Positions 39,401 through 42,400 of a DNA stretch of 64,000 nucleotides are shown here, piece by piece (positions within the stretch are counted from its first letter, which is position 1; each line of letters starts with the position of its first letter). Position numbers and translations under genes: made by a program. This DNA comes from Panopea generosa (Eukaryota; Mollusca; Bivalvia; Adapedonta; Hiatellidae). The DNA lies in NCBI GenBank assembly GCA_029582155.1, contig CM055903.1:41920769-41984768 (forward strand). The letters run 5' to 3'. Below the pieces are notes generated by a model that saw nothing but the letters and a program-made list of their open reading frames with translations, had not been told where the DNA came from and did not search any database.

Positions 39401-42400
39401 TCGTGATTTTATATATGTAAGGAGTTTTGGTTACTCTCAAAGATACAATATCCAAATGATAAAATCATTAAGTCCTACCATATACAAAATGTTAGATATA
39501 CTGCTTGTATTTAATTATGGCTTTAAATATTAAAGAACAATTAGTTAATAAAAGTGTTAACGTTAATATAATAAATAACATTTATAAGATACATATTTGA
39601 TGAAAAGTTAAAAAGGATGAGAAAGAAAATTAAAGGAATATTTATCAATTGTTTTTACTAGCATGATGGGTATTGGTATGCATATAAGAAATAGAAAAGA
39701 GTAATTAAATATTTCATTCATCAGATGTCCCTGTGTCCTTTTTCTTCGTATAAATGAAAAGAATGTTTACAAACTATGGAAATAGAAGTTGACATCGTTT
39801 TCATGAAATCAAAGGTATACACATGAAATAAAATTATTAATTCAATTTACTAATACATATGTTTATATTTAAATAATCAAATAAACAGTTTTGAACAATT
39901 ATGATTAAATTTAATGTTGTTACATATTTTTTCTTTTAGGTTTGAGTTTTGACTTGTGTGGTTATCTCATTCCTGGCGGTTCCTGTCAGAACACGTGCGA
40001 ATTCGAAGCGCGTCACGTTTGGGGAATTCCTCTATGTTACATATCCGGTTCAAGCTTGAGCAAATGTTGTATTCCAGTTGATCACCGTAAGTAGTAAATG
40101 CGGATTTTATTCTCCTATACATCTCACATTACAATTAATGTTGTACTAATCTACATATAGAGACATGCACTTCTGGAACATTGAACACATTGCCAATGGT
40201 TCTAAAAGTGTCTTGTTTCAATAGATAGTTCTCTTGACCAGATTGCTTTTTCACAATTTCGATGGTTTGATGGCACTCCTTCATTTTTGACAATTCTGCC
40301 CATTTGTTGCAGTGTATCATAACGCATCTTTAAACTGGTGTATCTTCAGAAAACAGTTCCCAATGTCAACCAAACTTGACAGAAATCATGAAAATGTTCC
40401 AATGTTCCCATATGCATGAAGAAATATGACAGTTTATGCATTTTTATCAACAAAATTGCCCAACCCGCTTTACACAGCTCTAATTTCTTGTGCGTAAGAA
40501 TCTAGGGGATAATTCTTAAGTGAGACCTATAGCGAATAATTTAGGCAGCCATACATTTTGAACTGATTACAGAATATTTTATTTTTACTGTTAATGAAGG
40601 CAATACACTGTATTATTGTTCATGACATATTTTACGAGGACCTGCCGATAAGTATACAATAGTTGTCGAGATATATCAGGTACTTGAATAGAATATGTTT
40701 TATGTTAAATCTAGAGGGAAAAAGGAAGAAATAGTTCTGCGCACAGGAAAAAGACAGCTGATAATCATTTCAGCTAGTATTTAGTACTTGGAAATCGTCG
40801 AAATAATGTTGATACTGTTTGTGGATTCAGTTGTATAGATATATACAGTGTGTGTTTAGAAATGAAATCAATATTAACTAAAAGCTACACTTTTCTTATT
40901 TAATATGTTGTATAAGAACAGGACGCCGTGGACAGTATCGTTTTATTTATAAAACGATTAGAGTAATACAATTTTGAATTCATTTCTTTGCAAAGAAAAC
41001 AATGAAGATTGTTATACGCATAAAATATTGATAAAATGTCGATGTGTGCTTATATTAAACATAATCTAGTTTATGTCAAATCATTGTTTTTCTTATCAAA
41101 ATTAGACGTGGATAAAAAATATTTATCATACAATGTTAAATACATTGTTGGCTTGGAGTTAATATTCTGTGCTGTCATGATGTCATAATTTGGACAAATG
41201 ATCAACTGAAATGTAGAAAGTTTGTTTGGACAGTTTTTAACAATCGCAACATTATCTATTTCAGCCCGTATGTCACTTCACAGAGCTCGGGCAGCACAAT
41301 CTTTACAAACGACAACAGTGGCATCGCCCGTTACATCAACTACATTACCGCCGCAGTCAAGGACCGCTCAAGCGAGTTGTGGACGAGGTCGTTCCCATGC
41401 ACGTCTTCGGCGCGTCATAGGCGGCAGTCGGGCGCCCCCTGGTGCATGGCCGTGGCAGGTTGCAATACGATCGTACACTGGTCAGTACATATGTGGCGGG
41501 GTTATCATAAGTGACAATTGGATCCTCACTGCAGCCCACTGCTTTCAACAGTAAGTTTTATGTTACGCACGTGGACGACGGTATCCATTAAACATGATAT
41601 TTAATGTTCTGATTTGGATTATTCGCCAGGTTTGCATGTTCTGGCTTCTGCCACCGAATACAGATACTTATAGTGTCATTTGTTTCTGTAATTTATAATT
41701 ACTTTGGAATCATTGTGTTTTACACAATACGCGCGTGTATGCTGTCGTTTTTGAAAGACAATAGTCTACCGGGGATGCTTTTAGATATACTGTTTCGTTT
41801 TATAGTGCGACGACAAGAAAACAGCATGGCTAGATGCCACCCAGTGGTGTCATTTGCTACTGGCCTTTTCAAGGCGGAGGTTCCTGTTGTCATGTCATCT
41901 CTATATATTTTATTTATTATGAATATATTTAACATATTGTGTAAGTTTTATATTACACATTCCAAAATATACCAAATATACACTGTGTATGTTGTAATAA
42001 AAAGATATTTTTATTTTGGTAATAAATGTATATATTTTATTGAGTATGAATAAATTATACATATTGTGTTAGTTTTATATTACACATTCCAAAATTTACC
42101 GAATATACACTGTGTATGTTGTAATAGAAATATATGTTTATTTTGGTAATAAATGTATATATTTTATTAATTATGAATATGTTATACTTAATGTGTTAGT
42201 TTTATATAACACATTCCAAAATATACCGAATATACACTGTGTATGTTGTAATAGAAATATATGTTTATTTTTGTAATATATGTATATATTTTATTAATTA
42301 TGAATAGATTATACATATTGTGTTAGTTTTATATAACACATTCCAAAATATACCGAATATACACTGTGTATGTTGTAATAAAAAGATATGTTTATTTTGG

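Follow-up and report, generated by a model that had tools for sequence, protein, structure and literature searches.

Does a bivalve mollusc control a protease zymogen in the manner of the arthropod clip proteases, with a small six-cysteine module placed ahead of the catalytic domain? The question is raised by a gene at 33424-51901 in a 64,000-nucleotide stretch of the Panopea generosa genome (hereafter the window: contig CM055903.1, positions 41,920,769 to 41,984,768 of assembly GCA_029582155.1; coordinates below are those of the window unless another locus is named). Between the signal peptide and the chymotrypsin-fold protease encoded by this gene, a single exon specifies six cysteines, the last two adjacent. 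We consider it slightly better than an even bet (probability about 0.55) that the product is a secreted zymogen whose pro-module, of defensin/clip topology, has a clip-like role and remains joined to the catalytic chain by a disulfide once the enzyme is activated.

The six-cysteine exon and its gene

The exon (39940-40086, plus strand) is 147 nt long and of phase 1-1, with a strong acceptor (tattttttcttttag) and the donor gtaagtagta. Past the split codon it yields 48 residues spaced precisely C-x8-C-x3-C-x12-C-x9-CC. An earlier note on this DNA had placed such an exon between signal peptide and protease, and its spacing, splice sites and coordinates all proved exact. The six-cysteine exon pattern in the window is not due to chance. 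With broad loop limits, a six-frame search of the window gave the pattern a single time. A set of 30 random windows (first-order Markov, 60 strands) contained it twice if all frames are counted, and in none of the 60 strands did it lie within a spliceable phase 1-1 exon.

Seven exons, all on the plus strand, join to give an uninterrupted frame of 427 residues with a stop at its end. Exon 1 (33424-33481) supplies the start codon and a 19-residue signal peptide and ends in phase 1; it is the closest of four candidates above thresholds in the scanned interval (20,000-39,930) and has the top donor, which agrees with the consensus at 8 of 9 positions. Downstream of the six-cysteine exon 2, exon 3 (41265-41550) encodes a Thr/Pro linker, the linker Cys107, the basic RLRR-VIGG site and His57 (TAAHC, residue 160), while exon 4 (45465-45570) continues the protease domain downstream of His57. 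Exon 5 (47106-47463) carries Asp102 (HDIAL, residue 228), Cys122 (VCLPE, residue 248), an acidic stretch and CWVSGWGE; exon 6 (51149-51288) covers the domain from Cys168 up to Cys191, and exon 7 (51713-51901) contains GDSGGG with Ser195 (residue 368) and runs through the stop codon. The Thr/Pro linker, linker cysteine, R-VIGG site and partner cysteine in VCLPE named in the earlier note are all present, the last three as Cys107, R118-VIGG and Cys248.

Two tandem repeats accompany the gene. Intron 3 contains a minisatellite (41902-43294; 11 copies of a 127 bp unit), and upstream of the gene lies an array of approximately 20 copies of a 123 bp unit (29141-31624).

The catalytic domain and its activation

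Pfam Trypsin matches the whole protein at 5.7e-48; inside the protease domain DUF1986 (31.5 bits, above cut-off) and Trypsin_2 (below cut-off) were also found. By sequence, the closest solved relative among 557 matched sequences is alpha-chymotrypsin (1acb, 1.2e-34). The catalytic triad is intact (His160, Asp228, Ser368), and this triad, the R-VIGG activation site and the Trypsin match together place the enzyme among the S1A chymotrypsin-fold proteases. Between Cys122 and Cys136 (residues 251-306) there is an acidic, repeat-like interval of 56 residues with a net charge of -13, where the aligned chymotrypsin has approximately 10 residues.

The protein has 16 cysteines: six in the module, Cys107 in the linker and nine in the catalytic domain. 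The ten that lie outside the module presumably form the five standard bridges 1-122, 42-58, 136-201, 168-182 and 191-220. The mark of a two-chain enzyme is present in the linker Cys107 and the catalytic Cys248, which correspond to Cys1 and Cys122 of chymotrypsin and would be expected to pair. A linker cysteine and an activation cleavage are features of the clip protease family.

Aligned to chymotrypsin, the S1 pocket reads Gly189, Pro190 and Ser226, and trypsin specificity is unlikely. With a pocket of this kind the enzyme should not cut its own Arg site, so that activation would need another enzyme. The RLRR site fits the furin consensus R-x-K/R-R, and equally a trypsin-like activator. We propose that the gene product is a secreted, modular chymotrypsin-fold zymogen (signal peptide, compact module in the C-C-C-C-CC order common to beta-defensins and clips, Thr-rich linker and catalytic domain) that would be cleaved at RLRR-VIGG by an upstream trypsin-like enzyme or by a furin-type convertase. 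After cleavage the module would most likely remain tethered to the catalytic chain through Cys107-Cys248, and there it may act as a docking or regulatory module, clip-like in role.

A protease gene pair of the same layout

Searches of the whole genome (1.47 Gb, 39 contigs) revealed a near-identical protease gene pair on contig C13 (L019, L020, L046) with the layout of the window gene. L019 lies at 24.34 Mb and L020 at 23.84 Mb, approximately 0.5 Mb apart; they may have arisen by recent duplication, or be one locus assembled twice. The C13 protein, its exons read singly by eye, has a phase 1-1 six-cysteine exon spaced x6-x6-x10-x4, a linker cysteine and R-IVGG. Its activation site is SMLR, without RLRR, and its S1 pocket (also a by-eye reading) is Gly189/Asp226. 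Closer paralogues of the window protease exist: six other loci (three on C2 and one each on C11, C6 and C9; 51.6-56.4 bits) score slightly higher than the C13 pair (50.8 bits each).

The C13 module bears some resemblance to beta-defensins. Its AlphaFold2 model has a predicted local distance difference test score (pLDDT) of 70.4, and the top six Foldseek matches to the model are all beta-defensins, each of them weak (E 1.7 or worse). Its sequence resembles that of bovine beta-defensin 12, the stretch GGVC-V/I-P being common to both. Alignment of the C13 module to beta-defensins by hhalign gave a probability of 28 over 11 columns, and to clips it gave nothing; clip chains are also absent from the module's VIA-align list, which excludes nothing.

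The two modules are alike in location, exon phase, cysteine order and the opening DLC. MAFFT misaligned the cysteines of both, and loops were therefore compared Cys by Cys with a script; the resulting cysteine-anchored score between the modules, however, reached only p 0.064. A shared origin is plausible. The module was probably gained as a mobile 1-1 exon, given that the C13 genes are laid out alike and carry a module nearer to beta-defensins. A further step would be to suppose that the lineage made its own clip-type zymogens by shuffling phase 1-1 beta-defensin exons onto chymotrypsin-fold proteases, with the beta-defensin-like C13 module and the module of the window gene, clip-like in its outer loops and short in its inner ones, as stages in a single series: this we regard as doubtful.

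Relationship of the module to clip domains and defensins

Several results weigh against the reading of the module as a clip-like pro-module. A linker cysteine that pairs with Cys122 is a general feature of two-chain zymogens of the chymotrypsin fold and does not single out clip proteases. Pfam CLIP (PF12032) matches neither this module nor that of C13 (E<=10, the limit for all Pfam and Protein Data Bank (PDB) searches with the modules). The C3-C4 loop, with 12 residues here and 10 in the C13 module, is below the limits for clips in the accessible portion of PMC7005593 (a subtype-defining loop of 15-17 or 22-24 residues, taken here as C3-C4, and 37-55 residues overall). Sequence searches with the module returned no Pfam or NCBIfam family and no PDB chain, and a protein search of the whole genome returned the module itself plus one match (E 1.16), with no second copy; the E 1.16 match was dropped, being by eye a repeat-like frame without a comparable cysteine module. 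On the clip fold with its disulfides 1-5, 2-4 and 3-6, AlphaFold2 gave no usable model of the module (pLDDT 57.8), and Foldseek run with this poor-confidence model gave 0 matches. The want of a family or chain, the single copy and the unusable fold would also suit a small disulfide-rich domain that is confined to this lineage and unrelated in fold, and whose CC likeness to clips and defensins is convergent. Since its cysteine order, exon phase and location match those of the C13 module, we think such a domain unlikely.

Could the module instead be a true but divergent clip domain, in a clip serine protease that is homologous to those of arthropods and has shortened inner loops? Position and architecture are as in clip proteases: six cysteines, the final two adjacent, upstream of a chymotrypsin-fold protease. 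Three solved clips (two from PAP-2 and one from Grass) have loops x9-x5-x23..29-x8..9-CC, and the outer loops of the module, x8 and x9, come near to these; the C1-C6 span of 38 is within the range of 37-55 in the same portion of PMC7005593, and the title of a scallop paper (below) names a clip-domain homologue. Yet the CLIP model that passed over the module recovered in the same run both PAP-2 clips (4.6e-14 and 1.3e-12) and the Grass clip (1.3e-13), and the inner loops are x3 rather than x5 and x12 rather than at least 15. Scored with the cysteines as anchors, the module shows no significant similarity to any of the three clips (p 0.16, 0.29 and 0.09), and hhalign of the module against clips gave nothing. 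A genome-wide search with CLIP gave three matches (E 0.17, 0.41 and 4.4), none of which is exon 2; the best two are above the bit cut-off of the model but contain stops. Homology to arthropod clips thus appears distinctly unlikely. Because Pfam CLIP finds no match, the C3-C4 loop is too short and clip similarity is not significant, the module cannot, judged by its sequence, be assigned to the clip family, although the architecture is clip-like.

Similar comparisons were made with defensins. Pfam beta-defensin (PF00711) matches neither module, whereas the control, bovine beta-defensin 12, scores 1.5e-14; nor does any other Pfam family match them, including big defensin (PF14862), a model for which there was no positive control. 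Cysteine-anchored comparison of the module with two beta-defensins gave z values of -0.8 and 0.6, and hhalign gave nothing for the module against an alignment of the C13 module with beta-defensins, or for clips against beta-defensins. From C1 to C6 the net charge is 0 for the module and -2 for the C13 module, compared to +5 in two beta-defensins and +3 in one clip (for the whole exon it is -2 and +1, respectively); by this measure neither has the cationic core of a beta-defensin. Only the order of the cysteines links the module to defensins, and on present sequence comparisons it is not assignable to either the clip or the beta-defensin family. What the earlier note called a clip-like or defensin-like module therefore stands as a description of architecture but is not supported as a statement of membership, given the Pfam results and the loop of 12.

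A fusion of defensin and protease from which the module is freed as an antimicrobial peptide would draw on the C13 module, which is beta-defensin-like by predicted fold, spacing and sequence. The low C1-C6 net charge argues against a freed antimicrobial peptide, the expected bridge between linker cysteine and Cys122 would hold the pieces together after activation, and the beta-defensin model is silent on both modules. Release of this kind seems to us very unlikely. It is the C13 pair, more than the window gene, that suits the defensin-protease fusion offered as an option in the earlier note.

Survey of the genome

Across the genome Pfam beta-defensin has 25 matches (best E 0.28), five of them above the bit cut-off; at L047, the one of the 25 that was read, there is no defensin. 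Big defensin has 0 matches at E<=1 (six candidates scored), a search that a divergent one may escape.

Upstream regions were surveyed at 32 of at least 62 or so other loci (hand count) whose match begins near the protease N-terminus, with 10 kb taken at 20 loci and 4.2 kb at 12, a depth at which modules behind longer introns would be missed; part of the survey was confined to phase 1-1 exons with at least five cysteines. Five spots at L021 that match or resemble the cysteine pattern were dropped by eye as repeat frames, and the remaining cysteine-rich candidates, which resemble LDLa, kringle, frizzled or simple repeats, were likewise dropped by eye. Upstream of another trypsin-type gene, L024:5349-5486 is a candidate phase 1-1 exon with five cysteines, a CC end and a Thr/Pro-rich start; it could be chance, and was set aside by eye. 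Also upstream of a trypsin gene, a frame at L024:1906-2208 contains GDVETNPGP, which we take to be a 2A-like motif, perhaps of retroelement origin. A tandem array of trypsin-type genes occupies G000:C17:3762743-3984755, with at least 14 N-terminal matches (hand count).

Other features of the window

An open frame at 7829-8599 matches Pfam VWA (von Willebrand A domain, 1.2e-5) and presumably resembles inter-alpha-trypsin inhibitor heavy chains. A reverse-transcriptase fragment (Pfam RVT_1, 5.4e-14) lies on the minus strand at 849-1412. The open frame at 58167-58760 (198 residues) has no Pfam match at E<=0.01; we take it to recall the C-terminal portion of HSPA12-type proteins.

Comparison with known systems

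Arthropod clip proteases drive melanisation, clotting and Toll activation, and to our knowledge the origin of the clip domain is unsettled. In view of the C13 pair and its defensin-like module, defensin-type knots may have been reused as protease control modules in a way comparable to arthropod clip domains. Proteases with defensin-topology pro-modules outside the arthropods would offer a place to test common ancestry of clips and beta-defensins, and would let one ask whether this animal has pro-module-controlled proteases of its own. Were the exon-shuffling series true, either clip domains and beta-defensins form one superfamily, or the same fusion occurred twice.

In molluscs, a protease of the scallop Chlamys farreri with a clip-domain homologue is named in the title of Zhu et al. 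2007 (cited in PMC6281612 and PMC6920836), and the accessible text of PMC6920836 counts this protein with the clip proteases that function in the immune response. Going by the title, its likeness to the window gene is that both are proteases of molluscs and bear a domain of clip type. By that title a mollusc clip-type protease is a prior claim, which weakens the suggestion that such a zymogen had been overlooked. Among the open-access literature matches listed (a scope outside which most subscription journals lie) none dealt with a clip in a mollusc or with the fusion of a defensin to a protease.

With beta-defensins and the big defensins of molluscs (1fd3, bovine beta-defensin 12, 6qbk) the module shares the order C-C-C-C-CC, and the spacing of the C13 module is similar to theirs. 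Unlike them it is fused to a protease, its core is non-cationic and no Pfam model matches; the module of the window gene further differs from beta-defensins in its longer loops and in having no measurable similarity to them. From the arthropod clip proteases (PAP-2, 2ikd/2ike; Grass, 2xxl) it is set apart by inner loops of x3 and x12 as opposed to x5 and x23-29, by the Pfam CLIP result, by a non-trypsin S1 pocket and by RLRR at the activation site. With these same proteases it has in common a six-cysteine module ending in CC, placed ahead of a chymotrypsin-fold protease, and outer loops of similar length.
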